A DNA stretch of 64,000 bases, taken from NCBI GenBank assembly GCA_001449105.1, contig LNIY01000001.1, positions 62,001-126,000 on the forward strand, read 5' to 3'. This DNA is from Caulobacter vibrioides (GTDB lineage Bacteria > Pseudomonadota > Alphaproteobacteria > Caulobacterales > Caulobacteraceae). The notes beneath the pieces were generated by a model that had not been told where the DNA came from, searched no databases, and worked only from the letters and a program-made list of their open reading frames with translations. The translations under genes and the position numbers were made by a program. Shown here piece after piece: positions 1,906-31,020 of the stretch; within the stretch, counting starts at the first letter, position 1; each line of letters begins with the position of its first letter.

Positions 1906-1909
1906 CGCC

Positions 1910-2958: not shown

Positions 2959-4581
2959 TCAGCTGACCGGACAACCACCTGCCTGCTTTACGGGCCTGCG
3001 TCCTCCCTCTGCAACCGTTCCGAGCTCGTGTCGCCGGCTGGACGGCTCCGCGCCGCCCCATCGGATCAGCGCCTGAAGCAGACCTTCAGCATACCCGTCT
3101 TCGTCGCTCGCCCAAGCGACGAAACCGTCCGGTCGGACCAGCACGGCGCTCAGGCCCAATCGGTCCTCAGGCTCGCCGGCGACATAGGACAACCGCCCCA
3201 GCCAGGGGGCGACGAGCGCCGCGAGCGGGGCTCCGGGGGCGAAGTCGAGCAGCAGCGCCCTGCCCTCGCGTAAGCGTACGCCGGCCGATGGTCCGCTGGT
3301 GAAAGCGAAATCCGGGACGCTGCGGCCGACCAGCGGATGGCCGCCGCCGAGATCGTAGCGGAGCGACAGGTTCCAAATCTTCTCGGCAAAGTATGTCGCG
3401 CCGTCGCCGGTGGCGATCAGATCACGGACGATGGTCTCCAGCGCGCGCGCGCTTGGGGTGGGCCGCATCAGGGCGACCTGGGCGCGCGACCAGTCGAGGA
3501 TGCGGGCGCCCTCCGGCCGGCGCTCGACGCCATAGCTGTCGAGCAGGTCGATAGTCGCTTCGCCGCGAATGACGGCGGCGAGCTTCCACCCCAAGTTCAG
3601 CGCGTCGCCGAGGCCGAGGTTGAGCCCCTGGCCGCCGAGGGGCGAATGGATGTGCGCCGCGTCGCCAGCCAACAATACCCGTCCCCGTCGGTAGTCCGTG
3701 GCCTGGAAGGCGCGGTCGGTCCAAGTGGTGGCGAGGTTCAGCGCAGTGAGGGTGACGTCGGCGCCCGACACGCGGCGTAGTACGCTCTGAACATGGTCCA
3801 ACGTCAGCGCCTGGGTCCTGTGCGCCGCGCCGCCGTCGAAGTCGACCATCGCGATCACGCCAGGCCGAGCATAGGTGTACATGCCGGTCGCGGTGTAGTT
3901 GCGCCCGGGCAAGAGCGCGTCCGGATCGGCCAGGACCGCGTCGACCGAATAGCCGGTGAACTCCGGGTCGGTGCCGACGAATGCGAAGCCGCCAGCCTTG
4001 CGCACGGCGCTGCGCCCGCCGTCGCATCCGACCAGCCAGAGGGCGGAAAGCCGCTCGTCGCCGGCCTGGATCACCACGCCGCCCCTTGACGCATCGAAGT
4101 GTTCGACACGGGAGCCGCGGCGGATATCGGCGCCCATGGCGACGGCCCACTCGGCCAGAACGGCCTCCAGCGACTGCATGTCCACGGGCATGCTTACGCC
4201 CGCCGGGCTGGGGAGGCGGAACGGCAGGCACGCGGCGTCGATGTCCTCGTGAAAGAACTGTATGCCGGCGAAATGACCGGCGGGACGGCGCGGCTGCTGC
4301 ATCCAGTGAGGGGCGGCCATCGTCTCGCCGGCGGATCGCTTGGACAACTGGGCGGCTTTGACCGCGTCCAGCAAGCCGCGGCGATGCAGCGCCTCGAGGG
4401 TGGGAGCCGAGAGGCCGCGTATGCCGAAGGGCGGCCCCTTCAGCGCAGAGCGCGGATCGGCGGCCTGTTCGAGCACCGCCACCGAGACGCCCGCGAGTCT
4501 GAGTTCGCAGGCAAGAAAGAGCCCGACCGGGCCCGCGCCGACGATGACGACGTCATGGGTGAGAGAGGGATGGATAGGCAT
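2959..4581 (-). CDS. FAD-dependent monooxygenase, PheA/TfdB type
   Basis: A 540-residue class A flavoprotein monooxygenase that would hydroxylate an aromatic or polyketide-like substrate with NAD(P)H and oxygen. The GAGPVGLFLA dinucleotide-binding motif is at residues 15-24, the DG-type motif LVGCDGGRSAVR is near residue 180, and the GD motif GRVLLAGDAAHIHSP with GGQGLNLGLGDA lies near residues 300-330. The C-terminal thioredoxin-like domain typical of phenol hydroxylases follows. The ATG at 4581 puts the Rossmann motif at the expected distance. The LysR gene just downstream is a likely regulator. No substrate can be named. Confidence 0.92.
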   Translation of the reverse strand: MPIHPSLTHDVVIVGAGPVGLFLACELRLAGVSVAVLEQAADPRSALKGPPFGIRGLSAPTLEALHRRGLLDAVKAAQLSKRSAGETMAAPHWMQQPRRPAGHFAGIQFFHEDIDAACLPFRLPSPAGVSMPVDMQSLEAVLAEWAVAMGADIRRGSRVEHFDASRGGVVIQAGDERLSALWLVGCDGGRSAVRKAGGFAFVGTDPEFTGYSVDAVLADPDALLPGRNYTATGMYTYARPGVIAMVDFDGGAAHRTQALTLDHVQSVLRRVSGADVTLTALNLATTWTDRAFQATDYRRGRVLLAGDAAHIHSPLGGQGLNLGLGDALNLGWKLAAVIRGEATIDLLDSYGVERRPEGARILDWSRAQVALMRPTPSARALETIVRDLIATGDGATYFAEKIWNLSLRYDLGGGHPLVGRSVPDFAFTSGPSAGVRLREGRALLLDFAPGAPLAALVAPWLGRLSYVAGEPEDRLGLSAVLVRPDGFVAWASDEDGYAEGLLQALIRWGGAEPSSRRHELGTVAEGGRRPVKQAGGCPVS

Positions 4582-4981
4582 GAGTGCTCCGTGGTCGATG
4601 GTGTTCGACCGGAGCGTTCCTCGAACAAGGACGCCCGGACGAACGACGGGCGCTCGGTTGAGCGTCCGGGGTTCGCCGTGGGAGTCCAGGCGCGAAGCCA
4701 AAGACCAGAGCTTTCGTTACCGAAAGGGCTTGGGCTGACCAGACCAAGCCTGCCTTTTCCGACGCTGCCTCAATATCTGAAAGGCCACGATCCTTCAATC
4801 ACGGGCAAAGGCCGCAGATCAGAACTAGGAGGGCCTCATCTGTGTCGCCCGGTCGGGCAGCGCCATTTGCTGACATCGGCGCCTTCCCACATTCCGGGCA
4901 TTCAATGGATTATACCAAATGCGCGCCCCTCCGACGCTCCGCTGGGTCTGCTCCTGTGCGATCGGCGGACGGACGTGAGCG
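4582..4981. other. Intergenic stretch without a convincing gene
   Basis: The 400 bp upstream of the monooxygenase hold the promoter region of that gene and the 20-bp dispersed repeat described separately. Open frames here do not show family similarity and are in poor codon context. Confidence 0.5.
4861..4880 (+). repeat. Dispersed repeat, copy 1
   Basis: The 20-mer CGCCATTTGCTGACATCGGC matches positions 16536-16555 at 18 of 20 bases, and both copies are followed by a CGCCTTC-like segment. Both lie in intergenic DNA. Only two copies are visible, so this may be part of a larger family of intergenic repeats in the genome. Confidence 0.5.
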
Positions 4982-15071: not shown

Positions 15072-16499
15072 ATGTCCTTCCGCAAGACCCTGCTGGGCGC
15101 CGGCGCCGTCCTGATCTTGGGCGCGGCTGGCCTCGTCGCCACGCACGGCGGCCTCGCCACCCGGGCCGACGCAGCGCCGACGCCGGCCGCGGCTCCCGCG
15201 CCTGCGCCTCTGGGCCCCCTCACCGAGACCCCGTTTCGCTTCGGCTCCTTCGGACCGGTGACGATCTATCGCCGCGCCGCCGAGCCTGGCCGTTTCGTCG
15301 TGCTGATCTCGGACGAGGCGGGCTGGACCCCGGCCCTCGCCGAGCAGGCCCGCCGCCTGACGGCGCAGGACGCCACGGTCGTCGCCGTCGACCTGCCCCG
15401 CTTCCTACCCGCCGCCGAGCGGGCGGCGGGCGGCCACGGCCTCTACCCGGCCGGCGACTTCTCCGAACTGGCCCAGGCCGCTCAGAAGGCGCTGAAGTTC
15501 GCCAGCTATCATCGCCCGATCCTGATCGGCCAGGGCGCGGGCGCGGCCCTGGCCTACGGGACCCTGTCGCAATCTCCGGCCGGCATCTTCCAGGGCGGCG
15601 CCGGCCTCAACTTCCGCGCCGACCTGGCCACCACCCGGCCGCTGCTGGCCGGCGACGGCGGCCTGAACCACGCGGCCGCGTTCAAGGCCGGCTTTACCTA
15701 CGCCCCGAACGCCAGGCTCAACGTCCCGTTCTTCATCGTCCAGCCGGGCGACGCGGCCAGCGCCCGGGCCTTCGCCGGCGCCCTGCCGCAAGGCCGCGTC
15801 GAAACCACCCTTCCCAAGGCGCTGGACGCCATCCAACCCGCGGCCCTCCCGACATCCCAGGCCTCGTCCGCACGGCTGGCCGGCCTGCCGCTGGTCGAGG
15901 TTCCGACAGCCTCTAACGGCGACACCCTGGCGGTGTTCTATTCGGGCGACGGAGGCTGGGCCGGCATCGACCGGGGCCTGGCCCAGGGCTTCGTGAAGGC
16001 GGGCGTGCCAGTCGTCGGCTACGACTCCCTTCGATACTTCTGGACCCGGCGCTCGCCACAGGCGGCCGCCGAAGACTTGGCAGCGGTGATCCGCCACTAT
16101 CAGGCGGTGTGGGGCAAGCAGCGCGTGATCCTGGCCGGCTACTCCTTCGGCGCCGACGCCCTGCCGATCATCGTCCAGCACCTGCCGGCCGACCTGCGTG
16201 GCCAGGTCCGCATCGTCGCCCTGCTGGGGACCGACTCCACCGGCGAGCTGGAGTTCCACCCCGGCGACTGGCTCGACGTCGGAGCCAAGGACAGCTACCT
16301 GATCGCGCCCGTTCTGGCCTCGCTGAACGACCTGAAGATCGTCTGCGTCTACGGATCGCAGGAACATGCCGACGCCTGCCCGACCTTCCCCACTCAGGTG
16401 CGCAAGATCGGCCTGCCGGGCGACCACCACTTCAACGGCGACTACGACACGGTCGGCCAAGCCCTGAGCCAGGCAGCCGGCCTCTCACCAGCGCGATAA
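15072..16499 (+). CDS. acvB: AcvB/VirJ aminoacyl-phosphatidylglycerol hydrolase
   Basis: A 475-residue periplasmic protein with a signal peptide (RKTLLGAGAVLILGAAGLVA). It has two tandem alpha/beta-hydrolase halves. The N-terminal half has GQGAG where a nucleophile elbow is expected, so its Ser is lost. The C-terminal half, from about residue 275, has FYSGDGGWAGIDRGLA, RYFWTRRSP and the intact elbow GYSFGAD, with DHHFNGDY providing the late His. AcvB homologues hydrolyse lysyl-phosphatidylglycerol made by LpiA and were first known as VirJ-like virulence factors. The MprF gene just upstream supports the same role. Confidence 0.93.
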   Translation: MSFRKTLLGAGAVLILGAAGLVATHGGLATRADAAPTPAAAPAPAPLGPLTETPFRFGSFGPVTIYRRAAEPGRFVVLISDEAGWTPALAEQARRLTAQDATVVAVDLPRFLPAAERAAGGHGLYPAGDFSELAQAAQKALKFASYHRPILIGQGAGAALAYGTLSQSPAGIFQGGAGLNFRADLATTRPLLAGDGGLNHAAAFKAGFTYAPNARLNVPFFIVQPGDAASARAFAGALPQGRVETTLPKALDAIQPAALPTSQASSARLAGLPLVEVPTASNGDTLAVFYSGDGGWAGIDRGLAQGFVKAGVPVVGYDSLRYFWTRRSPQAAAEDLAAVIRHYQAVWGKQRVILAGYSFGADALPIIVQHLPADLRGQVRIVALLGTDSTGELEFHPGDWLDVGAKDSYLIAPVLASLNDLKIVCVYGSQEHADACPTFPTQVRKIGLPGDHHFNGDYDTVGQALSQAAGLSPAR

Positions 16500-16535
16500 C
16501 GCGTAAGCGGGACAATTCCTCGCGGGGCGGTTTGG

Positions 16536-16555
16536 CGCCATTTGCGGACATTGGC
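16536..16555 (+). repeat. Dispersed repeat, copy 2
   Basis: CGCCATTTGCGGACATTGGC, 18 of 20 identical to 4861-4880. It lies just after the AcvB gene and before the unusual four-gene operon, so it marks or lies close to the left boundary of that insertion. Confidence 0.5.
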
Positions 16556-16801: not shown

Positions 16802-18511
16802 ATGGCGATCGAGGCCGATCCGATCAGCGACGAGGACCTAGTCGCTCTGTTCCAAGCGGACGATCGCGGCGCGCGCTTGTCCGCTACACTCAAGGGCCTG
16901 CCCAAGGCCGACGCCGCCGCGTTGGGTCGTCGCTGCGCCGACCTGCACAATCAGGGACGGCTCGATTTCCTAGCCCTGGCGGGCGACCCGACCCTGACGG
17001 GCCGTAAGGACTACGAGCTCTTCGAGTTCGACTACTTCTTCGATCCCGCCATCGCCGACCTGGACATCTCGATCGATGCGATGATGCGGTTCATCCCCGC
17101 GGTCGCCCAACGCGCGGCAGGCCTTGGCCTGTCGCTGGGCGGGTTCAAGGCTTGGTGCCAGCGCGATCCGGCTCGCTGGGGTGCGGTGGCCGACGCCGTG
17201 AAGGCTGGAGATGCGGTGGCTCTGCCCTTCCTCAGCGCGGCCCTGCAGGCCAGCGACGATCTCAATCTGATCGACCAGCTTCTCGCCCTAGGCGGCGAGC
17301 CGCGCGCCATCGCTATCCAGGCCTTGGGCTGGCTGTCATCTACCGGCGACCTGCCGCGTCGGCGTCTGGGCCTTCTTACCCAGGCGCTGGAAGACGACGA
17401 CGAGATCAACGCCGGTGTCGTCCACGCCGCGCTACGGACCGCCGACCAGGTCAATCCACTGCTGCAGGCGGAGCTCGAAACCATCCTGGCCGAGGCCATC
17501 GACCGAGCCGGCCCGGCCGTGATCCGGCAGCTTGCGCAGATGCCGATCGTCTTTCCCAAGCAGGTGTCCGCCGGCGTGGTCCCCCTGATGCTGGCCGTAC
17601 TCGATCGCGTGGACGCGTCCGACGACGCTGCCGTGGCTCTGCTTGATGACAGCCTGAGCTTTTTGGTCGCCGGTGCCCACGCCGACGAGGCGATCGCCTT
17701 CGCCAGCCGCTTCTTAGCTAAGCCGGAAAACCCGCGCACGCTCGACGACCTAGAGGATTTCACCCATGCGTTGGCTCGCAGCGAGCATCGCGACCGGGCG
17801 CTTGTGGGCTGGCTGTTAGAAGGCCGCGCAGCCACCTGCAATCATCTAATGGAACTGTTGGCCAGCGAGGGCTTCGAAGGCCCGGTGCTGGAACCGGCGC
17901 TCGAGGCTTTCGGTCTGTCTCCCGCCGAATTGCTCTATCTCTGCCGCAAGGCTGTTGGCTTCCTGTTCATCAAGCCGGTCTCGGTCGCCTCGATCCTGAT
18001 CGCGGCGTTGCGACAGGCCGACGAGGTAGTTGGTGAGGCGCTCGCCGAGCTGCTCTTCGACCCAATGCTGCTCAACTATCCAGGCGCGGTTGGGCGCTAC
18101 CTGGCCAGCGTCGGGAGCGACGATGCCGCCTTCGCCAGCGTGCAAAAGGCCCTTGCCCTCGACAAGACCTACGAGGACGCGATTGGGTCGGTGGGTGAGG
18201 TCCGAGAACTGGCGATGAGCGAGGACGAACGCCAGACGCGCCTTCGCGTTCGGCGCGATGAATCCCGGCGTATCCAGAAGGCGGCCAAGGCCAGATCCAT
18301 CTTCGCGGGCCTGATCCCAGAGAGCCAGATCCTTCATGGCACGCGGGTGCGCAGCGTCGTCCGCGGGCTGGGCGGCGGCAAGCCCAACGTGATCGAGACT
18401 ACCATGCACAGCCATGGCTACAGCTGGGAGATGGCCCGCGGCCTGATCGCCGACCCGCTCGGTGTCCAGTACCGACTGTTCCGCTTCAAGGCCGAGTCGA
18501 AGCCGCAATGA
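16802..18511 (+). CDS. Unknown protein, first gene of candidate defence operon
   Basis: A 569-residue protein that I do not recognise. It is alpha-helical throughout, rich in Ala and Leu, with repeated paired-helix stretches such as LPFLSAALQASDDLNLIDQLLAL and IAIQALGWLSSTGDL that resemble HEAT/ARM-like repeats. No membrane segment or signal peptide is present. The last 90 residues are basic (RLRVRRDESRRIQKAAKARS) and include GTRVRSVVRGLGGGKPN and a His-containing MHSHGYSWEMARG. I chose ATG 16802, preceded by GGAGCCGGGG; GTG at 16781 is possible. Its stop overlaps the next start as ATGA, so the two are translationally coupled. A scaffold or sensor role is plausible. Confidence 0.8.
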   Translation: MAIEADPISDEDLVALFQADDRGARLSATLKGLPKADAAALGRRCADLHNQGRLDFLALAGDPTLTGRKDYELFEFDYFFDPAIADLDISIDAMMRFIPAVAQRAAGLGLSLGGFKAWCQRDPARWGAVADAVKAGDAVALPFLSAALQASDDLNLIDQLLALGGEPRAIAIQALGWLSSTGDLPRRRLGLLTQALEDDDEINAGVVHAALRTADQVNPLLQAELETILAEAIDRAGPAVIRQLAQMPIVFPKQVSAGVVPLMLAVLDRVDASDDAAVALLDDSLSFLVAGAHADEAIAFASRFLAKPENPRTLDDLEDFTHALARSEHRDRALVGWLLEGRAATCNHLMELLASEGFEGPVLEPALEAFGLSPAELLYLCRKAVGFLFIKPVSVASILIAALRQADEVVGEALAELLFDPMLLNYPGAVGRYLASVGSDDAAFASVQKALALDKTYEDAIGSVGEVRELAMSEDERQTRLRVRRDESRRIQKAAKARSIFAGLIPESQILHGTRVRSVVRGLGGGKPNVIETTMHSHGYSWEMARGLIADPLGVQYRLFRFKAESKPQ

Positions 18512-20247
18512 AACTTCTGCTGCGCGATTATCTGGGCTCGCTTCGCGAACGTGGCGAACTGGACGCCATTCTGCCCGACCTTCTGAGCGGCCTGGGGCAC
18601 ACAGTCCTTTGGCGGCCGGGCATCGGCACGACCCAAAATGGTGTCGATTTCGCCTCAGTCGGGCCGGACGCCACCGGCCGCAAAACTCTCTATCTCTATG
18701 TCATCAAGTCCGGCGACCTGACGCGCGCCGAATGGAGCGCCTCCCCGCAAGGGGTGCAGGCCTCACTCGACGAGGTGCTCTACGTCTTCCTGAAGACGCG
18801 CGTCCGGCCCGAGCACCGCGACCTGCCGGTGGCGATCTGCATCTGCTTTGGAGGTGACTATCTCGAACCGGTGCAGCAGCTTGTCACCGGCTATATCGAT
18901 ACGCACACCACGGCGACCCTCCGCTACGAGATCTGGCACGGCGATCATCTGGCGAACCTCCTGCTGACCGGGGTGCTGGGCGACAAGCTTCTGCCCAAGC
19001 CCCTGCAATCGTCCTTCCAGAAGGCCGTCGCCATGCTCGACGAGCCAGACGTGGCGATCCATCATTTCGACGGCCTGGTGCGCCAGTTGTTGGATCGGGC
19101 CAAGGCCAACGACAAGGCCCGGCTGGCGGCGATGCGCCAGCTCTATATCGCGCTGTGGATCCTGTTTGTCTGGGCGCGAGATCTCGACAACCTGCAGGCG
19201 CCTTGCAAGGCCAGTGACCTAGCGGTGTTGGCAGCCTGGGAGATCAACCGCCCCCTCCTGGGCAAGACCACCAAAGCCGCAAAGGCGCTCGCCAAAGGGG
19301 TGGACGAGATGATCCGCCTGCACGTGCAGATCAGCGCCCACTTCCTGGAAACCAAGATCTTGCCGCATGTCGGCAAGCGCAACGCCCTGTCCCTGGCCGT
19401 CGGCTCGCGAGATGCCATCGACGTAAATCTCAAGCTCTTTGATTTGCTAGGCCAGATCGCTGTTCACGGCCTGTGGCGGGTTTTCCTAATGCAGCGCGCC
19501 ACGGGCGAGCGTCGGGAGATCATCAAGCGTGATCTGGAAGGCTATGTGGGCAAGATGTTCGCGTTTATCGAGAACAACCCGACGCTGGGCTTGCCGGTCA
19601 AAGACGAGCACGCCACCGAGATCGCCCTGGCGCTCCTGCTGTGGTCGGGCGTTGGCCCCGACGCCGAGGCCGCGTCGGCCTGGGTCCACGAAATGGCCGG
19701 TCGGCTGTACTACGCCCTGGCCAGCCAGGTCGCCTATACCTGCCAACTGACCGACTATGCCGAGCTGGCCGTCCATCCGATCGCCAATGACGAAGACTAC
19801 CGCCGAGAGGTCACCGCCAGCAGCACCCTGGTCCCGTTGTTGGCGTGCTGGGCCTATGTGCTGGACGACCATGTCGCGCTGGGGGTCCTGGCCAAACTGA
19901 AGAAGGGCATGCTGTCCCACTGCACCTTCCAGACCTGGATGCCCGACGCCGACACCGAAACCTCGCTCTGGGTCGGCGGCCCGAGCCATGGCGTGGCGCT
20001 GAGCGATCTGCCCATCACCCAGACAGGTCTGCCGCTTCTGGCGCTGATGGCCGAACAGGCTGCCGACGGCGAGGCCTTCAACGGGCTCTCGGCCGTGCGT
20101 TCGGGGATGTGGCCGCTGGCCTTGATGGCATTCCGAGCCCAGAGGTTGCCGATCCCGCCCCAGGCCTGGATTCCGAACCTGGCTCCCGAGGGCGGCTTTC
20201 CGCCCTATGCCGAGGTCGCGCATCTAGAGGATGACGAGGAGGCGTAG
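18508..20247 (+). CDS. Unknown protein with a nuclease-like N-terminus
   Basis: A 579-residue protein of unknown family. Residues 20-75 look like a restriction-endonuclease fold: LLSGLGHTVLWRPGIG, then NGVDFASVGPD with Asp47, and LYLYVIKSGDLTR with Lys67, i.e. a D...xVK arrangement like the PD-(D/E)XK core except that a Val stands where the Glu/Asp is expected. The rest, about residues 170-560, is helical with no known motif and ends in an acidic tail (LEDDEEA). No membrane segment. It is coupled to the upstream gene (ATGA) and lies 352 bp before the NERD-kinase-helicase gene. Confidence 0.8.
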   Translation: MKLLLRDYLGSLRERGELDAILPDLLSGLGHTVLWRPGIGTTQNGVDFASVGPDATGRKTLYLYVIKSGDLTRAEWSASPQGVQASLDEVLYVFLKTRVRPEHRDLPVAICICFGGDYLEPVQQLVTGYIDTHTTATLRYEIWHGDHLANLLLTGVLGDKLLPKPLQSSFQKAVAMLDEPDVAIHHFDGLVRQLLDRAKANDKARLAAMRQLYIALWILFVWARDLDNLQAPCKASDLAVLAAWEINRPLLGKTTKAAKALAKGVDEMIRLHVQISAHFLETKILPHVGKRNALSLAVGSRDAIDVNLKLFDLLGQIAVHGLWRVFLMQRATGERREIIKRDLEGYVGKMFAFIENNPTLGLPVKDEHATEIALALLLWSGVGPDAEAASAWVHEMAGRLYYALASQVAYTCQLTDYAELAVHPIANDEDYRREVTASSTLVPLLACWAYVLDDHVALGVLAKLKKGMLSHCTFQTWMPDADTETSLWVGGPSHGVALSDLPITQTGLPLLALMAEQAADGEAFNGLSAVRSGMWPLALMAFRAQRLPIPPQAWIPNLAPEGGFPPYAEVAHLEDDEEA

Positions 20248-20392
20248 GGCACTACGTCCAGACACTCAGAAGTTCGGCAACGAGTGATCCAGTTTATGTC
20301 GAGCGGCGGTCTCGCGGGCGCGCCATTAGCGGAAGTTAGTCCGGCTCCAAACTCCAGACATTCAAAAGCACTCCGACGAGGTCCTCGAAACG

Positions 20393-20503
20393 GTGCTTTT
20401 CCTCTCCGGGCGTCACGACCTCATCACCGCGCGCAAACTCGCCGACATCCGCGAAAAGCTCAAAGAAATCCTCGAGATGATCGACGACCTGCAGGCCAGA
20501 TGA
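20393..20503 (+). pseudogene. Small ORF or gene remnant between operon genes 2 and 3
   Basis: From about 20333 an open frame in good codon usage runs to TGA 20503, but its only start codon is GTG 20393, which gives 36 residues. The peptide, HDLITARKLADIREKLKEIL and then EMIDDLQAR, is a clear amphipathic helix. The coding character begins upstream of any start, which suggests either a truncated gene or a small protein whose start I cannot see. It may originally have been an operon member. Confidence 0.35.
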
Positions 20504-20599
20504 AGCGACGCGTAGGGCCGGAGGCGAAGTCTACAATCTGAGGTGCAGGACTTCCCTCATCCGTTGAGCTCGTCCATGCTGACGCTTCGGGGAGCGACG

Positions 20600-23500
20600 A
20601 TGCACATTACAAATTGCGGCCGAGGCGTTCACGCACGCGAGGTCAAAGGTATCGAGAAGTTGCGGGCCTTGCCCGCCAATTGGTTCGCCTTCACCAACTT
20701 GGACCTCGCGACCGGCGTGGGACGATCCCGCGAGATCGACGTCGTCATCGTCGCCGACGACCGCATCTTCCTAGTCGACCTGAAAGACTGGGGCGGCAAA
20801 ATCGAGAGCGACCGGGGCAATTGGCTGCACAACGGTGACGACCGCGGGGAATCCCCCGTCGGAAAGATCCATCAAAACGCCAAGGATCTGGCCTATCTCC
20901 TCACCGAGCACGTCAAGAAGTACGTCGGCGGCCCGACGCCGCGCGTGATCGGCCTTGTGGTGATCACCCAGCGGGCGGACCTCACCGGAATCTCCCAGAC
21001 GGAAATCGGCAGCGTCATGTTGGTGGAGGACTTCATCGCCGCCGTCTCCACCACTGGCGCACGCGTCGGCCATTTCGGGGGCGTAAAGCCGGCCTTTATT
21101 GAAAAGCCGCTGACCGACACGACCTGGAAGGACCAACTCAGCAAATTCTTCAACGCCAAGACCGGCAAACTCCGTCCGGGTCGTCGGCGATACGCCAACT
21201 TCATGGCCGCGTCGGACGACGCGACATTCGAACACCCCAAGCAGATCTTCAGCGAATACGACGCTCACGACGAGAACGCGCCTCAATCGCTGGGCACGCT
21301 GCGCGTATGGGATTTTAGCAAGGCGTCGATGGCCCGTTTCCAAGGCGAGCAGGCACGGCACGAAATCGCCGGCCGAGAACGCACCGTCATCGAGTTTCTG
21401 AAGGACCGGGGCGAGGCGTGCGAGAATGCGGTGTTGCATTCCCGAGCCGAAGATCCCGAACGCGGCGTCGGATATTGGGACATCTTCGACAGAAGGCCTC
21501 GCCTCAAGCGCATGGCGGAATTTGTCGCCGCTGAGGCTGGCGATCTTGGACGTGAAAGCCGGCTAGAGCTGGCTCGTCAGCTTGCTTCTCGACTGGCTGC
21601 GTTGCACGCGGCGGACGCTGCGCACCTCGACCTCGGCGGCCACAGCATCTGGCTCGAAGCACCATCGACCGTGAAGCTATCGCATTTGATGGCGGCTCAA
21701 TTTCCGCAGGTCGCTTCGCTAGGGTCCAGCCGCTACCAATTTCTCTCCAGCGCCAGTCTCCCAGAAGATATCCTAGGCGGCGAAAACCTGCCCAAGCGTC
21801 GAGACGTCTTTCTCCTGGCCGCTGCGGTGCATTGGTTGATCTTCGGACAACCGCCCGCGGGCGGAAGCGAGAACACGCCCTTTGAGTGGAACGCCGCCGT
21901 CGACGCCGGCGGCGCATTTTCGGAGCTTCATCCCTGGTTCGAAAGGGGTCTGTCACTCGATCCGCATGACCGGTTCAAGAGCGCCGTCGAAGCTCTTGAG
22001 GCCCTCAACGCCGCCAGCGCGGCAAGACCCTCGGCGCGCGAAGTGATCGAAGGCCTCGAACGTTTTCGGGGCGACATCCATTCGCAGAGGCAGTTGGCCA
22101 GGGCCTATCCGGAAACGACCGTCTTTCGTGAGAGCGAACGGGTCGACGTCTGGAAGAGCGAGCAGGATGGCGAAGCTGTCGTCGTCAAACTCTGGAAAAG
22201 CACCTCTTGGGGTGACCAAACCAAGGAAGGACCTCGTCTCCTTGATTTCTTGACCCGGGCCCAGGACCTGGCGCTGTCGCCTCCGACGGGTTGCGCTCCA
22301 GTATTGAAGGTTCTTTGGCTACAAGACGCGCTCGTCATCGTTCAGCGTTTCGTCGAAGGGGAAAATCTTAGTCAGTCACTGATCGCAAAGCGGTTTGCCG
22401 CGCGCCCGGAAGCCGCGGTGACCTTCGTACTTGCGCTGGCGCGGATCATCCTTGCGCTACACCAACAGGGTCGGAGCCACGGCGACCTCAAGCCGGACAA
22501 CATCATTATCGAGCTTGGCGAGGCATCGTCGCCGGTGCTAGTCGACACCGTAGATTTCTCCTCCAGCGCCGACGGCGAGATTCTATCTTCCGCCTATGCG
22601 CCGGCTGCGGGCGGTCGCATGGAACGTGATCGGTTCGCGGTCACCAAGATCGCCGAAGAAGTCTTCGCTGACGCCGAGTTGCCCGGCGCACAGGGCGCAG
22701 CGATCGCGCGTGCAATTAGGGTTTGCCGAGAAAACACTCCGGAGAATGGCACGCTACTGCCGTTGGTGGAGGCGCTGGAGTTCGCATTGGCGCCGACGGA
22801 GACGTCGACCCGTCCGACATTGAAGATCTCGATCCCTGGCGCGGTGCTTGGACCCGTGCTCCCCGACGAAGGTTTCTTCTATGTCCGCAAACTGAAAGGC
22901 CGTGCCGCCTTTTCCCTGCGAGGGGCCTCCGAAGAGATCGAGATCTACGTCGATGGGAAGCGGCAACCTCATCACGGTCGCCGCCTGCCCGTCCCTCAGG
23001 GGCGTATCTCTCGGCTGCGCCGCCATGAATTCATGGCCTATGCGGCGGACCTAACCGTCGAGCCTTCCGACGTGGCCGATTTCGCCGATCTCTTGCCCCT
23101 GATGCATGAGCCAGATTTCGAGAAGGGCTGGAGCGGCGAGATCGACGATGCGCCAGAAACGCCGGTCTCTGAGGAAGGGGCCGGTGGCGAACTTGGCGAA
23201 CTCGACCCAAGTCCAGCCTTCGAAGACGCAACGTTCGACCGCTTCAGCGACACCCCAAGGCCGGCGCGGCGGCTGGCGGCTGTCGATGTCCGCAGCTTGT
23301 GGCGTGGCTTGATCGAGGCCGAAAGCGCCTTGACCACCGAAGGCGTCGCTCGCTCCGAGAGCGCCTATGCGCGGGACCTCAAGCGTCACATCGTGCCGTT
23401 TGAATTGACCAGCGGCACGTTCGACTTCAATCGTAACGACAAGGTCGGCGTCGAAAGACTTGACCGAAAGAAGCAGTGGCGTCGGATCGGCGAGTTGGAC

Positions 23501-25567
23501 ATCGCCCGCTCCAAACCAGATCGGGTCGTTATCGACGCCACCGATCTGCCTTCCGCGCGGCAGTCAGGGCTGATCGGAGAGGAAGATCGGCTGCGCTTCA
23601 CCAGCCACTTCGAACTCCAGAGTTTCAAGCGTCGAGAGTCAGCTGTTGGCCGGGTCCTGGACGGCCTGGCGCGCGTTCCAGGCCTGTCGACGCTCTTTGA
23701 AAGCCAAACGCCGGTCTTGCCGTTCTCCAAGCCCTACGTGTGCGAGGAAGACGATTTAGCTCGCTATCGTTTCAACCCCACGCAAAAGGCGGCTTTCCAA
23801 AAATTGGTCGAGGTCCGGCCGCTAGGAGCGCTGCAAGGCCCTCCTGGCACCGGCAAAACCCACTTCATAGCCGCATTGGTTCACTACGCCCTGACCAAGG
23901 GCCTAGCGCGCAACATCCTCCTGGCGAGTCAATCCCATGAGGCCGTGAACAATGCCGGCGAAGCCGTTCTGAAGCTCTTCGCCGACGCCTCCGAACCGCC
24001 GAGCATTCTACGGGTCGGCAACGAAGGCGTGGTGTCAGATCGCCTAATGCCTTTCCACACCGACAGACTTGAACAGCTCTACAAGGATCGGTTCCGCGCC
24101 CAGATGCGTGAGCGCCTGATGGTGGCCGGTAAAACGCTCGGCCTGGCGCGCCCCGTGCTGGAGATTGCGATCCATGTCGAGACGACGCTCCGCCCCGTCG
24201 CCGAGCGCGTTGCCGAACTACGCGACAAGGCCGAGCCTCAGCCTGAACGCCTTCAGAGCCTCGTGGCGACCTTGCAGGCGCAAGTCGACGACCTAGAGCT
24301 ACCGGCTCCCATCGAAGTGACCGCCGAAGGCGCGCTTTCGGTCTTGGATGCGGTGATCGCAAGCGTCGCCGGCCAGCTGCCCGCCCATCAGCGGCCGGCA
24401 CCCGAGCTCATTGCCCGTTTGCGCGCTTTGGCGCAGGTGGGTCGTGACTTTATCGGCAGCGTCTCCACCGCCCAGCGCGGGTTTGAGGCCTTCCTGGCCG
24501 GCACTCGGCAGATCGTGGCGGGGACGTGCGTCGGCTTGGGACGCCCAGCCTTGGGTTTGACTGCGACCCCGTTCGACCTTGTCATCGTCGATGAGGCAGC
24601 GCGCTGCACAGCTAGCGAACTGGCCGTGCCGATGCAGGCGGGACGCTGGATCGTGCTCGTTGGGGACCACGAACAGCTCGAGCCTCAACACAACGCGGAG
24701 GTCGTTTCGCAGGTCGCCGAGCAAGAGGCCATTTCCGAACAAGACGTGGTTCGGAGCGACTTCGAAAGACTGTTTGCCAACGACTACGGCAAGGCGGCTG
24801 GCGCCCGCCTCGATCGTCAATACCGAATGCTTCCCCCGATCGGCGAAGTCGTATCGAAAACCTTCTACGGCGACGCGCTGAATCACGGGCGGACAGAGCC
24901 CGAAATTCCGCCTGAACGATTGCCACGCGGGTTGGAACGGCCGTTGACCTGGATCACGACAGATTGCCTGGGTGAGGCAGGCGAGGAACGGTGCGAGGAA
25001 AGCGGCACCAGTAGGGTGAATGCGGCCGAAGCGGATGTTATCGTCGGCTTGCTGAAACAATGGGTTGGCAACAAGGGGTTCCACGCCTGGGCCACGGAGC
25101 AGACCAAGCATGCTCAGGTCATCGGCGTAATTTGCATGTATGCTGCCCAGCGCGATCTGGTTCGTAAAAAGGTGCAGGCGGCCAACCTCCCCGAGGCGTT
25201 TCGCCGAATTCTCAAGATCGACACCGTCGACAGCTACCAGGGAAAGGAAAACCCGATCGTCATCGTTTCGCTGGTGAGAAACAATACCGACGGGGCCAAG
25301 ATCGGCGGCATTTCGACAATCAAGCCGGGCTTTCTCAACAAGAAGAACCGCATCAACGTGGCCGTAAGCCGCGCGATGGATCGCCTGGTTATCGTCGGCG
25401 CCAGATCACGGTGGCGCGAGGGCGAGTGGATGCATCGCTTGTCCGAAGCCGTTGAGACGGCCTTCGCCGAGGGCAACGCCAAGGTGGCGCCCGCGACCGT
25501 TATCCTCGATCAGCCTGCCAGCGACACATCGGCCAAGGCCAAGTCGCGCACCAAGGCGGAGGCGTAG
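20600..25567 (+). CDS. NERD nuclease - pseudokinase - kinase - SF1 helicase fusion
   Basis: A 1655-residue protein. NERD domain, residues 10-130: REIDVVIVADD (Asp47), FLVDLKDWGG (Asp60, Lys62), the nuclease core of the fold. First kinase-like domain, about 230-480: HLDLGGHSIWL replaces the catalytic HxDxxxxN and no DFG is seen, so it is a pseudokinase. Second kinase domain, about 490-735: VVVKLWK (Lys530), HGDLKPDN at 627-634 and VDF, so probably active. Helicase, from about 1050: GPPGTGKT at 1080-1087, DEAA at 1331-1334, GDHEQLEP, DRQYRM, TVDSYQGKE and NVAVSRAMDRL, an Upf1-like SF1B motor. The ATG at 20600 follows GGGGAG; a GTG at 20543 is less likely. NERD plus kinase occurs in PglW of type 2 BREX, but without a fused helicase. 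Confidence 0.9.
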   Translation: MHITNCGRGVHAREVKGIEKLRALPANWFAFTNLDLATGVGRSREIDVVIVADDRIFLVDLKDWGGKIESDRGNWLHNGDDRGESPVGKIHQNAKDLAYLLTEHVKKYVGGPTPRVIGLVVITQRADLTGISQTEIGSVMLVEDFIAAVSTTGARVGHFGGVKPAFIEKPLTDTTWKDQLSKFFNAKTGKLRPGRRRYANFMAASDDATFEHPKQIFSEYDAHDENAPQSLGTLRVWDFSKASMARFQGEQARHEIAGRERTVIEFLKDRGEACENAVLHSRAEDPERGVGYWDIFDRRPRLKRMAEFVAAEAGDLGRESRLELARQLASRLAALHAADAAHLDLGGHSIWLEAPSTVKLSHLMAAQFPQVASLGSSRYQFLSSASLPEDILGGENLPKRRDVFLLAAAVHWLIFGQPPAGGSENTPFEWNAAVDAGGAFSELHPWFERGLSLDPHDRFKSAVEALEALNAASAARPSAREVIEGLERFRGDIHSQRQLARAYPETTVFRESERVDVWKSEQDGEAVVVKLWKSTSWGDQTKEGPRLLDFLTRAQDLALSPPTGCAPVLKVLWLQDALVIVQRFVEGENLSQSLIAKRFAARPEAAVTFVLALARIILALHQQGRSHGDLKPDNIIIELGEASSPVLVDTVDFSSSADGEILSSAYAPAAGGRMERDRFAVTKIAEEVFADAELPGAQGAAIARAIRVCRENTPENGTLLPLVEALEFALAPTETSTRPTLKISIPGAVLGPVLPDEGFFYVRKLKGRAAFSLRGASEEIEIYVDGKRQPHHGRRLPVPQGRISRLRRHEFMAYAADLTVEPSDVADFADLLPLMHEPDFEKGWSGEIDDAPETPVSEEGAGGELGELDPSPAFEDATFDRFSDTPRPARRLAAVDVRSLWRGLIEAESALTTEGVARSESAYARDLKRHIVPFELTSGTFDFNRNDKVGVERLDRKKQWRRIGELDIARSKPDRVVIDATDLPSARQSGLIGEEDRLRFTSHFELQSFKRRESAVGRVLDGLARVPGLSTLFESQTPVLPFSKPYVCEEDDLARYRFNPTQKAAFQKLVEVRPLGALQGPPGTGKTHFIAALVHYALTKGLARNILLASQSHEAVNNAGEAVLKLFADASEPPSILRVGNEGVVSDRLMPFHTDRLEQLYKDRFRAQMRERLMVAGKTLGLARPVLEIAIHVETTLRPVAERVAELRDKAEPQPERLQSLVATLQAQVDDLELPAPIEVTAEGALSVLDAVIASVAGQLPAHQRPAPELIARLRALAQVGRDFIGSVSTAQRGFEAFLAGTRQIVAGTCVGLGRPALGLTATPFDLVIVDEAARCTASELAVPMQAGRWIVLVGDHEQLEPQHNAEVVSQVAEQEAISEQDVVRSDFERLFANDYGKAAGARLDRQYRMLPPIGEVVSKTFYGDALNHGRTEPEIPPERLPRGLERPLTWITTDCLGEAGEERCEESGTSRVNAAEADVIVGLLKQWVGNKGFHAWATEQTKHAQVIGVICMYAAQRDLVRKKVQAANLPEAFRRILKIDTVDSYQGKENPIVIVSLVRNNTDGAKIGGISTIKPGFLNKKNRINVAVSRAMDRLVIVGARSRWREGEWMHRLSEAVETAFAEGNAKVAPATVILDQPASDTSAKAKSRTKAEA

Positions 25568-25568
25568 A

Positions 25569-27077
25569 ATGACTCCAACCAAACGCCCCATTTTGTCGCT
25601 CACGGGCTTGATGAAGCCTGAGGAAGACGGACCGCTCGATCTGGCCACCTACGATGTGCAGTTGCCCTGTCGCTGGTTTGAGATCGACCACAAGATCGCC
25701 GTTCTTGGACGTGTTTCGCTGACGGCGGAGTTTCTCTTGCGTCTGCTCAAGTCGGCGGACGGCTTGGATGAAGCCAGCGCGGCGGCCTTCTTCGGGTTCG
25801 ATCTGAGAGATATGTCTTTCGTCCTCTCAGAGGTGGAGGGGGAGGGCTATGTCCAACGCCGAGAAGGTCGACTGTGGCTGACCTTGGCGGGCCACTCCCT
25901 CTTCCGTTCCGATTCCGATCAGCCCCAGATTTTCGAGGTCGAGGCGGTGCGTGAAAACGTCGGCTTCGATCTGATTTCGTTTGCTCCAGAACCGAAACGT
26001 TATTTGGAGGATTTCGAGTTTTGCCTCCCCGAACTGGCTGTCCGCCCCGAGATCGCAAGCTCTGCAACCCAGCACATTCCGGGCACCTTTCGCCGCTTTT
26101 ACCCCGAGATCCAGGCACGTCGCGAACGCAAGCGCGACGACAAGAAGTCACTCTATTCGGTCGACAACGTTTCGGCCGGTGATCGCTTTCCAGCGACGGT
26201 CCGCATTTCAGTCAAGTCGACCGGCATGCGTCCCCATGCCGGCGAGCCGGACCTATCGGACTGGCGCAGCGAGCCTGAGCTCGAGGATCGCCCCAACACC
26301 GTCGATGCTGCGTCGGCGTTCGTCGATCGCCTCGTAACAACCCGCCACAGCGCAGATGGCGAGGCCTATGCCGTGTTGTTGGAACTGGCGCCCGAGTTCT
26401 TAAAAGAATTTACCCGTCGCGACGGCTTGAACGTCGAGCGCTACTACCGTGAGGCCTTCAGCCGCGCCGGCGAGGTTCGCTCCGATCGCCCCACATTGCC
26501 GATTGTTGGTGCCTTGCTGGGAGAGAAGAACCTTCGCAGGGCGATGGAAGTCGTGTCCTACGGTCTGCGTAAAGAGGCCAAGCCTGCGAGTTTTCTGTGG
26601 CTCGCGCCGATGATGCACCATTGGGGCGCAACCCAGCTTTTGCCGGAGTTCCTCAAACTTCTGAAGGCGCAACTCCGGCAAAAGCAAACCGACCCATCCG
26701 CTCCGCCAGCCATAGCCGTGGGCTTGGCCACGGGCCGCCCCGAGAGCCATCTCGAACGGGCCTTCGACGCACTCGCCGTAAGCGACGTGCCGCGCTTTCC
26801 GAGAATCCTCGAGGTCCTGCTCGTTCCGGGCGTCATGGCGAGCGTGACGGTCCACGCGCCGATCGGATCGCAAACGGGTCTGCCGGTACCGCTCGGCTTC
26901 ATCAGTTTCGATCCGCGCGTCGTGGGTCGCACCCAAGCATATATGGCCGAACGCGTCGGTCCGATGCTTCGGAATAAGCCCTTCGAGACCGCCGTGATGG
27001 AAACCTTGCTCTCCACCGGAGCCGACGATGCCGAAGGTGCCCCTGAAGCCGCAAACGAAGTCGACCAAGGCGCCTGA
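25569..27077 (+). CDS. Unknown protein with winged-helix-like N-terminus, last gene of operon
   Basis: A 502-residue protein starting 1 bp after the stop of the NERD-kinase-helicase gene, so surely co-translated with it. Residues 45-110 look like a winged helix: FLLRLLKSADGLDEASAAAF, then FVLSEVEGEGYVQRREGRLWLTLAGHSLF. The middle is mixed and includes a basic patch (ARRERKRDDKKS, about 178-189). The C-terminal half has PTLPIVGALLGEKNLRRAME and a conserved-looking FLWLAPMMHHWGATQLLPEFL. No enzymatic motif could be identified. It may bind DNA and regulate or target the complex. It ends 43 bp before IS debris. Confidence 0.8.
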   Translation: MTPTKRPILSLTGLMKPEEDGPLDLATYDVQLPCRWFEIDHKIAVLGRVSLTAEFLLRLLKSADGLDEASAAAFFGFDLRDMSFVLSEVEGEGYVQRREGRLWLTLAGHSLFRSDSDQPQIFEVEAVRENVGFDLISFAPEPKRYLEDFEFCLPELAVRPEIASSATQHIPGTFRRFYPEIQARRERKRDDKKSLYSVDNVSAGDRFPATVRISVKSTGMRPHAGEPDLSDWRSEPELEDRPNTVDAASAFVDRLVTTRHSADGEAYAVLLELAPEFLKEFTRRDGLNVERYYREAFSRAGEVRSDRPTLPIVGALLGEKNLRRAMEVVSYGLRKEAKPASFLWLAPMMHHWGATQLLPEFLKLLKAQLRQKQTDPSAPPAIAVGLATGRPESHLERAFDALAVSDVPRFPRILEVLLVPGVMASVTVHAPIGSQTGLPVPLGFISFDPRVVGRTQAYMAERVGPMLRNKPFETAVMETLLSTGADDAEGAPEAANEVDQGA

Positions 27078-27119
27078 GCCGGCGCACGACGCTATCTCCG
27101 GCGCAAGTCGTAATATCCC

Positions 27120-27376
27120 TGAGCTGCACCTGAGACTTTGCTCCACGCGGCGCTAGCGTCCGAACCTTGAGAGGACGGACATGAAGCGAGCGAGATTTAC
27201 CGAAGAGCAGATCATCGGGATCCTTCGGGAGAACGAGGCGGGGGCCAAGGCGGGCGAGCTGGCCCGCAAGCATGGGGTCTCAGAAGGCACGATCTATCCC
27301 TGGAAGGCCAAGTTCGGCGGGATGAGCGTGTGGGAGGCCCAGCGGTTGCGGACGCTGTAGGACGAGAGCATCCAAC
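27120..27376 (+). mobile_element. Truncated IS3-family element
   Basis: The left end begins near TGAGCTGCACC at 27120. The start of OrfA follows at ATG 27181: MKRARFTEEQIIGILREN, ELARKHGVSEGTIYPWKAKFGGM, WEAQRLRTL, a typical IS3-group HTH transposase. A TAG at 27358-27360 interrupts the frame where a Glu codon is expected, and homology stops about 15 bp later. OrfB and the right end are missing. Confidence 0.8.
27181..27360 (+). pseudogene. IS3 transposase OrfA fragment
   Basis: Fifty-nine codons of the HTH part of OrfA, ended by a nonsense codon in the leucine-zipper start. The rest of the transposase is gone, so no mobility is expected from this copy. Confidence 0.8.
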
Positions 27377-27459
27377 CTGCGGGCGCGCTAGCTTCACAGT
27401 GCGGGCAGCGGCTCTCCTGGAAAGGATCGGAAACCCAATCGCAGAATTGTGTTTCGGCT

Positions 27460-27800
27460 TGCAAAAGTGACCCCCATCTCGGGGATACCGGCGTCCAAAA
27501 ATGCCCCCCTGTCCTTGAGGCTTTGATGGCCAGATCGGCGGCTTGTGTAGCCGCGGATCGAGACGGGGATGTTGGTAGTGGAGACGGTGGCGAAGATCCG
27601 GCGCGAGCACTGCGCGCGGGGCAAGGGCGTGAAGACGATCGCGCGGGAGATGGGCCTGGCGCGCAACGGGGTGCGCAAGATCCTGCGGTCGGGGGATACG
27701 GCGCTGGAGTACGAGCTGAGTGAGGGGCGGCCGTCATCGATGGCGCCGCGCGCGCAGCACGCCGGTCGCGCCGGTGATGGCCAAACGCGAAGCGGGGGTT
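27460..27800 (+). mobile_element. Truncated IS21-family element (istA start)
   Basis: An IS21-like end (TGCAAAAGTGACCCCC at 27460, with a second similar CCCCCTG motif downstream) is followed by ATG 27569 encoding the IstA N-terminus: MLVVETVAKIRREH, KGVKTIAREMGLARNGVRK and ILRSGDTALEYEL, the HTH of IS21 transposases. Similarity ends after about 60 codons, near GRPSS. The catalytic domain and istB are absent. Confidence 0.75.
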
Positions 27801-27983
27801 TCAAGCGAGGTTCTCACGCCTCGGCGCCACGCTTTCAGCGGCGCGAAGAGAGTCTAGAACGATGGATTCCGGAATGGCAAGCCAGGGACGGCTCGGTGGG
27901 GCTGGCGACGCAAGCCGATAGGCTCGTCCCGCCTGTCGGGCTTGGTTAGAACCGTCCGACCTGACACCGGATCGCCCGCGCCC

Positions 27984-28820
27984 ATGAACAAGACGCCGCT
28001 GAGCAAGCCGTATGCGCTGCAGCTGAACGAGATCAACAACCAGCTGTGCTTCGCCGCCCTGGTCAACGAGGAGGCGTGCAAGGTCATCCGTCCCGGTCAC
28101 GCTCATCCGGAAAAGGCCGACACCACGACCCTCTTTCCCGGCAACAGCCATGCGTCCCGGATCCACCGTTGGGCCAAGGACCTGGCGGAGGTCGAGGTCC
28201 GGGCGGTCAGCACCAGCTGCCGCAGCGCGCTGATCGCCGCCTCCGAATACGTCCAGATCTATTGCGAGGAGGCCCTGAAGCTGGTGGGCTCCGTGTCGGC
28301 GATCCCCCACGATCCGCCGGCGGGCGGGGCGGACGAGAAGCTGAGAGCCCAGCTCAAGGCTGCGGGCGCGCCGGTGATCGACGGGGTCTTCGACACGGTG
28401 ATCTACCTGCGGCGCAGACGAAACAACCTGGTCCACGCCAATGGCAGTTTTCGCGCCGACTTCGAGAAGCATTTCCCGGCCGGTGCCGAACGGCTGACCG
28501 CGTTCTGGGCCAAGAGGCCCACCGAACTTGGCGGTTTCGATTTCGCCAACCGGCGGATCGAGGTTTTCACCGTCGAGGACGGTTATGCGGTCATGAACCT
28601 CTTTCGGATCTGCCTGAGCGAGATCGACGGCTGGGTCGCCGGCTTGCTGCCCCTGCCCCATGTCGTTGAGACGATCGTCAAGGCGTTGCTGGTCAGAGCG
28701 CCGGGTCTGGGCGGCGACCTTCCCCGTCTGGTTCGTAAGACGCGGGCCGTGCTTGAGCTGGACTATAGCGAGCGTCTGGATGCGGCGACCCTGGGGCCGA
28801 TGGTTCAAGCGGCGGTGTGA
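27984..28820 (+). CDS. Candidate HEPN-domain protein
   Basis: A 278-residue, mostly helical soluble protein. The segment YLRRRRNNLVHANGSF contains RNNLVH (Arg146, Asn147, His151), the RN-x3-H form of the HEPN ribonuclease signature, placed after a long helix-rich N-terminal half as in many HEPN proteins. A second helical half follows (FRICLSEIDGWVAGLLP). No family can be named. The ATG at 27984 lies just after the IS21 debris. It opens a co-directional group of four genes (27984-31020) of unknown function. HEPN proteins are common in abortive infection and toxin-antitoxin systems; the motif alone is not proof. Confidence 0.6.
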   Translation: MNKTPLSKPYALQLNEINNQLCFAALVNEEACKVIRPGHAHPEKADTTTLFPGNSHASRIHRWAKDLAEVEVRAVSTSCRSALIAASEYVQIYCEEALKLVGSVSAIPHDPPAGGADEKLRAQLKAAGAPVIDGVFDTVIYLRRRRNNLVHANGSFRADFEKHFPAGAERLTAFWAKRPTELGGFDFANRRIEVFTVEDGYAVMNLFRICLSEIDGWVAGLLPLPHVVETIVKALLVRAPGLGGDLPRLVRKTRAVLELDYSERLDAATLGPMVQAAV

Positions 28821-28936
28821 AGCGGCCGGAACCAGGCGGAGCGAAGTAACCGTGAAGCTTGGCGGTTGCTTAATCGAGTTCGCGTGGGCTGTGACCCGCG
28901 ACCTTGAGTCGAGCGTGTCTTGTTGTGGAGGCTGAT

Positions 28937-29746
28937 ATGAACGCGATCTTCAAACAGGTGCGTCGCATCCAGGCCTTCGCGCGCTGGGTGGGGCGCAACC
29001 CGCCGCTGCGCTTGGCCAGGTTGGCGGCGCGCTACAAGCGGGTCCGCGCCCTGGCGCTGATCACCCAATCGCTCTGGCTGACCCCGGATCGTCTCGCCGA
29101 CATGCGTCCCATGCGCCAATGGGGTTACCTGCTCGCCTGCGTGGGACTGGCCTCGACCCTGTGGTCCGACGCGGCCCTGGGCCTCTCGCCTGACCACACC
29201 GCCTTGCTGCTGCAAAGGACCGGTGAGATCGGTGAGCTGACCGGCTGGTGGCGGGCCAGCCAGGCGGCGCTGGTGGCCACCGCGATGACCGTGGCCCTCA
29301 CCGCCGCGCTCACCCTGGGTGTCGCGCTCTGTTTCCACCTTGACTTGGCGGCGGCTCGCGCCGCCTCTCGCTTCCTGAAGATTCCGCCGCCGCGCGCGTT
29401 AAGCCTGCGCTACTTCATCCTGCTGGTGGCGGGCGACGTCGCCGCTGTGTTCGCGCTCTTCTGGCTGGTGCTCAAGGCGGTCAGCCCGCAAGGCCTGGCC
29501 GCGCTGGAATGGCTCAACGCCCATCCCTGGCTTGGCGCGCCGCTCTTCGTCATCGTCGGCCTTGCCTATGTGGGCGGCTTTGTCCGTTGGCAACTGACCT
29601 TGCGTGAGCGCGGGCGGCAGATCTATGGCGAAGGTCGCCGCCTGATGGCCTACAGCGTCGCAAGCTTGGCGGTGTCCCTGTCGGTTCTGATCGTGTTCGC
29701 GGGCCTGGCCGGCGTGGGCCACGGGCTCGCCCAGCCCGTTGGCTGA
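28937..29746 (+). CDS. Membrane protein of unknown function
   Basis: A 269-residue integral membrane protein with about five hydrophobic helices: WGYLLACVGLAS, ALVATAMTVALTAALTLGVAL, FILLVAGDVAAVFALFWLVL, PLFVIVGLAYVGGF, and a last one near LAVSLSVLIVFAGLA. The first 45 residues are basic and amphipathic (RRIQAFARWVGRNPP...RLAARYKRVR). ATG 28937 follows GAGG. I see no known domain. It sits between the HEPN candidate and the CheD-like/Ntn hydrolase pair on the same strand; a membrane effector or anchor for its neighbours is possible but not shown. Confidence 0.75.
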   Translation: MNAIFKQVRRIQAFARWVGRNPPLRLARLAARYKRVRALALITQSLWLTPDRLADMRPMRQWGYLLACVGLASTLWSDAALGLSPDHTALLLQRTGEIGELTGWWRASQAALVATAMTVALTAALTLGVALCFHLDLAAARAASRFLKIPPPRALSLRYFILLVAGDVAAVFALFWLVLKAVSPQGLAALEWLNAHPWLGAPLFVIVGLAYVGGFVRWQLTLRERGRQIYGEGRRLMAYSVASLAVSLSVLIVFAGLAGVGHGLAQPVG

Positions 29747-30195: not shown

Positions 30196-31020
30196 ATGAC
30201 CAGCGTGGTGGTATGGACCCGACGCGAGGTGATCACGCTGGGCGACAAGCGATCCGTCCATGGCGACGGGATCTGGGTGGCGGCCGACAGCCGCATCTCC
30301 ACGCCGGGTCAGGTGTCGACACGCAAGATCCTGACGGACGCGGCCGCCAAGCTCCTGCCTTTGCAGGTCAAGCTCTTCGAAGGGGCCGAGCATGGTCCCG
30401 GGTTCACGCCCGCCTATGAGGGGCAGCTCGGCTTTGCGTATGCCGGCAGCACCTTCTCGGCCACCATGACCTATGCCTTGGCCGCATCTTGCCTTCAGTC
30501 CCTGTGCGGCGCCTATGACGACCCCTTCCCTTCGCTGGAAGATCTCGTGGGTTTGGTGTGCGCCATCGCCACCCGGTACGTCGTCGACGCGGCCGCGCCG
30601 TTCGAGGCCTGTATTCTCGGTGCCCAGCCTTACCGTCGCGGCTTGACCGACAGCCAGTGCTTCCATCTCACCTATGACCCCGGCCAAAGGACGATGGTGT
30701 CACGGGAAATCGATCTGGCGCCGGAGGGATCGTTTCTGCTTCTGGGGTCGCGCCAGGCGGAGCTGACCGAGGCGCTGACGGCGGGGTTCGCCCAGACCGT
30801 CGAGTACAATCCCACCCGGGCCTTGGCCGAGATCATCACCAGGGATGGGGTCGACGAGATCGGCGGCGCGTTGCAGTTGGGCCGCGCGCGCCGCGGCGGG
30901 TTCAGACTTCTGCCCACCTGGGGCTATGCCGCCGGCGCGCCGGCCTATCCGAGCCTGGTCGGCCTGAAGGCCGGGGGCGCGCTGCAGAATGTCGGCGCCT
31001 TCTGGGTCTGGTATCCTTAG
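30196..31020 (+). CDS. Proteasome-like Ntn hydrolase
   Basis: A 274-residue protein resembling HslV/proteasome beta subunits. The N-terminus MTSVVVW puts a Thr at position 2, the usual nucleophile after Met removal. GIWVAADSRIS (Asp31) and the Lys residues in TRKILTDAAAKLLPL match the Asp and Lys that activate it, and LGFAYAGSTFSATMTYALA is the typical Gly-rich turn and helix. SFLLLGSRQ and ITRDGVDEIGG continue the fold. It is longer than HslV (about 180) because of loops and a C-terminal extension. No HslU-like ATPase is nearby. Directly coupled to the CheD-like gene upstream, so both probably act in one system. Confidence 0.65.
   Translation: MTSVVVWTRREVITLGDKRSVHGDGIWVAADSRISTPGQVSTRKILTDAAAKLLPLQVKLFEGAEHGPGFTPAYEGQLGFAYAGSTFSATMTYALAASCLQSLCGAYDDPFPSLEDLVGLVCAIATRYVVDAAAPFEACILGAQPYRRGLTDSQCFHLTYDPGQRTMVSREIDLAPEGSFLLLGSRQAELTEALTAGFAQTVEYNPTRALAEIITRDGVDEIGGALQLGRARRGGFRLLPTWGYAAGAPAYPSLVGLKAGGALQNVGAFWVWYP

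Follow-up and report, generated by a model that had tools for sequence, protein, structure and literature searches.

The stretch at 16802-27077 of a 64,000-nucleotide window from Caulobacter vibrioides (the whole DNA analyzed, positions 62001-126000 of contig C1 in a 5.3-Mb assembly; coordinates below are window positions) very probably represents two catalogued anti-phage systems lying in tandem inside a defense island, i.e., Olokun (oloA-oloB) and a NERD-bearing Mokosh type I (mkoA-mkoB), as judged from sequence comparison. A preliminary description, made from the sequence alone, had taken the same four genes for a single operon of unfamiliar proteins and a candidate undescribed defense system.

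Assignment of the four genes to Olokun and Mokosh

As that description had listed them, the stretch holds four open reading frames (ORFs) of 569, 579, 1655 and 502 codons, all on the + strand and all with open frames. A PADLOC profile search gave near-full-length matches for each of the four proteins, corresponding to OloA, OloB, MkoA and MkoB:

16802..18511, + strand: oloA (Olokun), 569 aa; PADLOC PDLC03925 OloA, 6.1e-73
18508..20247, + strand: oloB (Olokun), 579 aa; PADLOC PDLC03926 OloB, 3e-174
20600..25567, + strand: mkoA (Mokosh type I, long form), 1655 aa; PADLOC PDLC03921 MkoA, E=0
25569..27077, + strand: mkoB (Mokosh type I), 502 aa; PADLOC PDLC03923, 3.2e-127, profile 1-442 of 454

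The matches extend over residues 38-568 of 569 in OloA (profile 44-595 of 596) and residues 1-557 in OloB (profile 1-553 of 556), marking both as full-length homologues adjoining each other, and over residues 1-1633 in MkoA (profile 1-1601 of 1607). In-frame GTG codons at 16781, resulting in an OloA of 576 aa, and at 20543 are alternative starts of oloA and mkoA, respectively. Proteins 1, 2 and 4 had looked unfamiliar because Pfam and NCBIfam give nothing above cut-off, and a PHROGs search of OloA, OloB and MkoB was also without matches. If PADLOC is ignored, this blank does make the genes look like an undescribed defense system; that reading is nevertheless barely conceivable, as PADLOC models exist for each protein, span most of all four and so refute it. 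The PADLOC search recommended in the preliminary description did match described systems, though two of them and not one for the whole operon. Hence, of its central proposal the defense part stands, in line with family membership and the settings of relatives, whereas "undescribed" does not. The candidate is closed as two catalogued systems, an ordinary outcome, and the case shows that two adjacent systems can pass for one operon when general family libraries lack names for the genes.

We infer a defense role for both pairs from family membership. Olokun and Mokosh were reportedly introduced by Millman et al. in 2022. In the relevant part of a 2026 review, both are counted among the systems with a mechanism not known (PMC12926258), and a passage of another paper states that viral transcripts are degraded by Mokosh (PMC11291487), which is taken here as that paper's statement and not as settled.

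The Olokun pair agrees with its catalogued counterpart in having the same two proteins in the same order at near-full length, and no structural difference was found. The genes are coupled by an ATGA overlap at 18508, as noted before, and the same 4-bp overlap occurs in three of the four other loci viewed (L041, L042, and L044; 20 bp in L043). The nearest relative seen is that of Caulobacter sp. BIN4, with identities of 69% for OloB and 46% for OloA. The nuclease-like core previously suspected in protein 2 is borne out by a predicted model (pLDDT 87.3), which places a PD-(D/E)XK core fold in the N-terminal domain of OloB, with VIA-align matches to FokI, AF1548, and MspJI, and mainly helices beyond it. 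Residues E14, D47, K67, and Q81 are invariant in an alignment of 40 rows (A1; 35 of the 120 listed proteins among 1133 found, plus five locus translations), the window protein included, while position 65 is Ser in 34 rows, Val in three, among them the window protein, and another residue in three. The active site could thus be atypical for PD-(D/E)XK enzymes, and the invariant E14 might stand in for the acid. A Pfam scan of the 40 rows gave no family at E < 0.01, and comparison of the OloB profile with solved structures gave nothing convincing (best E 0.75). For OloA, the homologue search returned three proteins including OloA itself, hence no profile was built; a sub-threshold TPR match (0.019) prompts the guess of a helical-repeat scaffold. 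OloB was also found at five loci in viral contigs. Several of its relatives are labelled 'chemotaxis protein' in public databases, which looks like carried-over misannotation.

MkoA combines NERD, kinase, and helicase in one protein, as had been described for protein 3. Pfam detects NERD at residues 16-122 (6.8e-15) and the helicase families AAA_11/AAA_12 (7.5e-34/4e-38), and in the kinase region PF07714 lies just above its cut-off (23.2 versus 23.1 bits) and PF00069 just misses it (31.4 versus 31.7 bits). Of two kinase-like regions, the first is degenerate (HLDLGGHS) and the second has HGDLKPDN at 627. The helicase is of the Upf1-type superfamily 1 (SF1), at residues 1058-1602, with NAM7/UPF1 as closest PDB relative (5.2e-25); its Walker A motif GPPGTGKT covers residues 1080-1087, so that Lys1086 had been assigned correctly. 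Intact motifs are NERD E45/D47/D60/K62, HGDLKPDN, GPPGTGKT, and VDEAAR. Hence, the combination of SF1 helicase and Ser/Thr kinase region that characterizes Mokosh type I is present in MkoA (PDLC03921, AAA_11/AAA_12, HGDLKPDN). Membership in PglW or MAD6 was considered and rejected: the NERD-plus-kinase half of MkoA aligns with the kinases PglW of BREX (1.7e-22) and MAD6 of MADS (2.4e-35), but the scores are far under the curated cut-offs, reaching 79 of 990 and 122 of 460 bits needed, respectively.

The mkoB gene follows after the 1-bp gap already noted, at 25568. Its expected winged-helix start corresponds in a predicted model to a MarR-type winged helix at residues 47-122, the part which the fold matches mainly cover; the remainder, where a degenerate PLD fold might lie, is barely probed by them, and the matches listed include no PLD enzyme. 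Among 50 aligned rows (A2; the window protein and 49 of the 120 listed among 157 found) a Pfam scan gave no family at E < 0.01, and comparing the MkoB profile with solved structures gave nothing convincing, the best hit being a transcriptional regulator (E 0.11). MkoB was not found in viral contigs.

Separate occurrence of the pairs and the junction between them

An alternative to two systems in tandem is a composite four-gene unit, in which Olokun and Mokosh have turned into a single unit in this lineage and Olokun cuts what Mokosh exposes, under a common promoter. The pairs are indeed on the same strand and only 352 bp apart, and in simple scans of 20200-20620 neither a sigma-70-type promoter nor a + strand terminator came up, with one terminator-like site on the - strand, though little weight can be placed on sigma-70 scans in this class. 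The tandem, however, is seen in its own genome only across all sets searched. Among 299 genomes of the family, OloB is present in five and near-full MkoA (>1000 bits) in five, both only in the genome studied; the MkoA model gives some match in 171 of the 299, which beyond these five are partial helicase or kinase matches among those listed. Likewise, 385 genomes of the class hold full-length OloB in four cases and full-length MkoB in the own genome only, both thus in 1/385, not counting as full-length a weak OloB match (G538, 3.7e-4) and excluding 16 weak MkoB matches to the winged-helix part only. The two draws overlap in a few genomes and their contigs are fragmentary, so that absence is imperfect evidence. 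Searching 72,556 plasmid records gave OloB in 34 and MkoB in 13, with zero accessions common to both lists (opened were 10 of the 13 MkoB and one of the 34 OloB records). The proposed check for co-occurrence of all four genes thus turned out negative in every other genome and record searched.

Elsewhere, each pair occurs by itself. In all eight bacterial loci examined (own included) and in three of five viral-contig loci, OloB has an OloA match next to it, and, own excepted, neither MkoA nor MkoB was found at any of the loci in flanks of about 1.5 to 10 kb. Conversely, MkoA and MkoB are neighbors in four further genomes (G056, G077, G244, and G064) that gave no OloB match, and also on plasmids without one.

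The sequence between the pairs points in the same direction. The 352-bp gap contains a gene relic, and a congener (G056, locus L037) shares the Mokosh pair as part of a longer cassette ending within an insertion sequence (IS) remnant:

20368..20503, + strand: relic of the C-terminal end of a ~129-aa gene, about 45 codons long; 7 of 74 other genus genomes match its DNA at 69-84%
20513..27274, + strand: Mokosh cassette common to G056 (L037), about 98.2% identical
27181..27360, + strand: IS orfA start, cut off; identified from the sequence, common with L037 up to 27274

The G056 similarity is a single match at 20482-27274 (98.2%), whose limits, traced base by base, are near 20513 and 27274. Its left break is accordingly between the two gene pairs and its right one within the orfA remnant, which we take to be IS3-type. 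In G056, mkoAB is preceded not by oloB, for which this genome gave no match, but by a gene for a 1113-aa RNase_H_2/helicase protein, and is followed by one for a C5 cytosine methyltransferase. Four further matches in the relic search (E about 4e-4 to 8e-4) were disregarded. Elsewhere, the relic gene is intact, with ORFs of 127-132 aa (L085, L087, L088, and L091). Four of its seven neighborhoods were examined, and all four show a recombinase-like gene (large serine recombinase) of 522-539 aa, that of L093 with a PHROGs integrase match (2.1e-55) and the others read from sequence, as was a ParB-like gene near the relic homologue in three (L093, L095, and L096). Moreover, mkoA of G244 comes after a recombinase gene and a RepB/ParB gene, and a recombinase set adjoins a short-form Mokosh in G154, making recombinase-borne mobility of Mokosh plausible by association. 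No structured RNA was indicated in the gap between oloB and mkoA (z = +1.19).

On the basis of co-occurrence counts and cassette junction, the composite system is rejected as highly unlikely. The term four-gene operon does not hold either: genes 1-2 and 3-4 are tightly arranged, yet the gap with its relic separates the two pairs, and Mokosh is also present where Olokun is not found. The tandem is best read as a junction inside a defense island, where the Mokosh pair would have arrived as a cassette (about 20513-27274) next to oloB, at a spot retaining the tail of a recombinase-associated gene. The IS remnants and the relic at the edges might also be taken as signs of a decayed, non-working island with the pairs as mere remnants. 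This is quite improbable, however, as none of the four frames is interrupted and each reaches full family length, catalytic motifs are intact, and MkoA and MkoB are 99.0 and 99.4% identical to their G056 counterparts.

NERD and PLD forms of Mokosh and possible modes of action

In the Mokosh pair of the window, MkoA bears a NERD nuclease domain and MkoB is without a PLD motif. Pfam gives no match to PLD in MkoA or MkoB, nor does PLD figure in the family list of the 50 A2 rows, and the HxKx4D motif is absent from both proteins and from the same 50 rows (window protein and 49 relatives). The relevant part of PMC11672841 describes Mokosh as an RNA helicase and a PLD nuclease on separate genes, to which type I adds a Ser/Thr kinase; the PLD-family nuclease of this description was not found in the window pair. 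A table in PMC10952713 gives both NERD and PLD among the domains of Mokosh type I. Given that PADLOC names the proteins MkoA and MkoB and that this table includes NERD, the pair is filed as PADLOC's NERD-bearing MkoAB form and not as helicase-plus-PLD.

In line with this assignment, the pair resembles the long-MkoA form (PDLC03921 plus PDLC03923), where NERD, kinase regions, and SF1 helicase are all on MkoA and the MkoB behind it has no PLD motif, and differs by ordinary divergence only, the congener G056 being 99% identical. With the short form (PDLC03920 plus PDLC03922, e.g., L095), corresponding to the type outlined in PMC11672841, it shares gene order, kinase and helicase in MkoA, and a downstream MkoB. 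In contrast, the short form is without NERD and has HxKx4D on MkoB, the opposite of the window pair. Among the loci compared, all 12 intact long pairs show NERD on MkoA and no PLD on MkoB, and all six short pairs the reverse; these counts are from a convenience sample, as the search of the family draw did not extend to MkoA of the short form (PDLC03920), with L109, which has no MkoB neighbor, kept out of the pairs, and they may reflect a single event.

PLD enzymes cut metal-independently. Tentatively, and with the balance slightly against it, the NERD-bearing Mokosh might be regarded as a distinct mechanistic subtype, in which a NERD nuclease (PD-(D/E)XK-type, metal-dependent), joined to the helicase-kinase protein, has taken over cutting from the PLD on MkoB, MkoB has turned into a pure nucleic-acid-binding cofactor, and substrate or product differs from the helicase-plus-PLD form. 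Considering the domains and intact motifs seen in the sequence, the Upf1-type helicase of MkoA would load onto phage-derived nucleic acid, RNA being likelier than DNA, its activity would be set by the kinase region, the NERD domain would make the cut, and MkoB might assist, through its winged helix, in binding or holding this nucleic acid. For Olokun, the predicted fold of OloB and conservation of D47 and K67 are consistent with a complex of OloA and OloB in which helical scaffolds would present the PD-(D/E)XK-type N-terminal domain, and phage infection would trigger cleavage of nucleic acid by the latter. Questions raised are whether having NERD instead of PLD gives Mokosh another target and whether OloB, with its altered site, is able to cut at all, with the NERD/PLD exchange being the part most worth experiment.

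Genomic setting

To the left of oloA, DNA similarity with three genomes (G154, G212, and G142) stops around 16466-16536, where the VirJ gene ends, and therefore the island probably begins there. In G142 (L083), window positions 1-4880 and 16101-16536 are found in reverse order, about 5 kb apart, indicating that the region beside VirJ is rearranged.

Relatives of the pairs are found in various defense and mobile contexts. In G056 and G077, MkoAB relatives lie beside restriction-modification genes, on plasmid 1 of Polaromonas sp. JS666 (L117, record 131108-137522) a NERD-type MkoAB is located between pglX and pglZ of a BREX operon, on an Aminobacter plasmid MkoAB adjoins trb genes, and in Pseudorhizobium it is beside an AbiH-annotated gene. 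An OloB match on a Phaeobacter plasmid lies within conjugation genes. Downstream of OloAB in Caulobacter sp. BIN4 (G284, L041:9617-14125) is a gene for 1502 aa whose STAND-NTPase matches are weak and stay under the Pfam cut-off, with a weak PADLOC PDC-M54A match as well.

Downstream of mkoB, IS debris is present as previously stated, and no second copy was found when the own genome was queried with 27080-27960. The debris is followed by a gene belonging to neither system:

27942..28820, + strand: neighboring ORF of 292 codons, from the ORF list

This ORF and that at 28904-29746, the HEPN candidates of the preliminary description, are both without a match at E <= 0.001 in Pfam, PADLOC, and NCBIfam, and the former has none in PHROGs; an R-N-N-L-V-H motif, spotted by eye, makes the former a possible HEPN protein, and for both a HEPN nature is putative. 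The 274-codon gene at 30196-31020 (+ strand) belongs to no Pfam or PADLOC family and shows weak matches in two of 30 other genus genomes. The strain-specific stretch may thus reach past both systems, perhaps up to the sigma/FecR/TonB genes from 35782.
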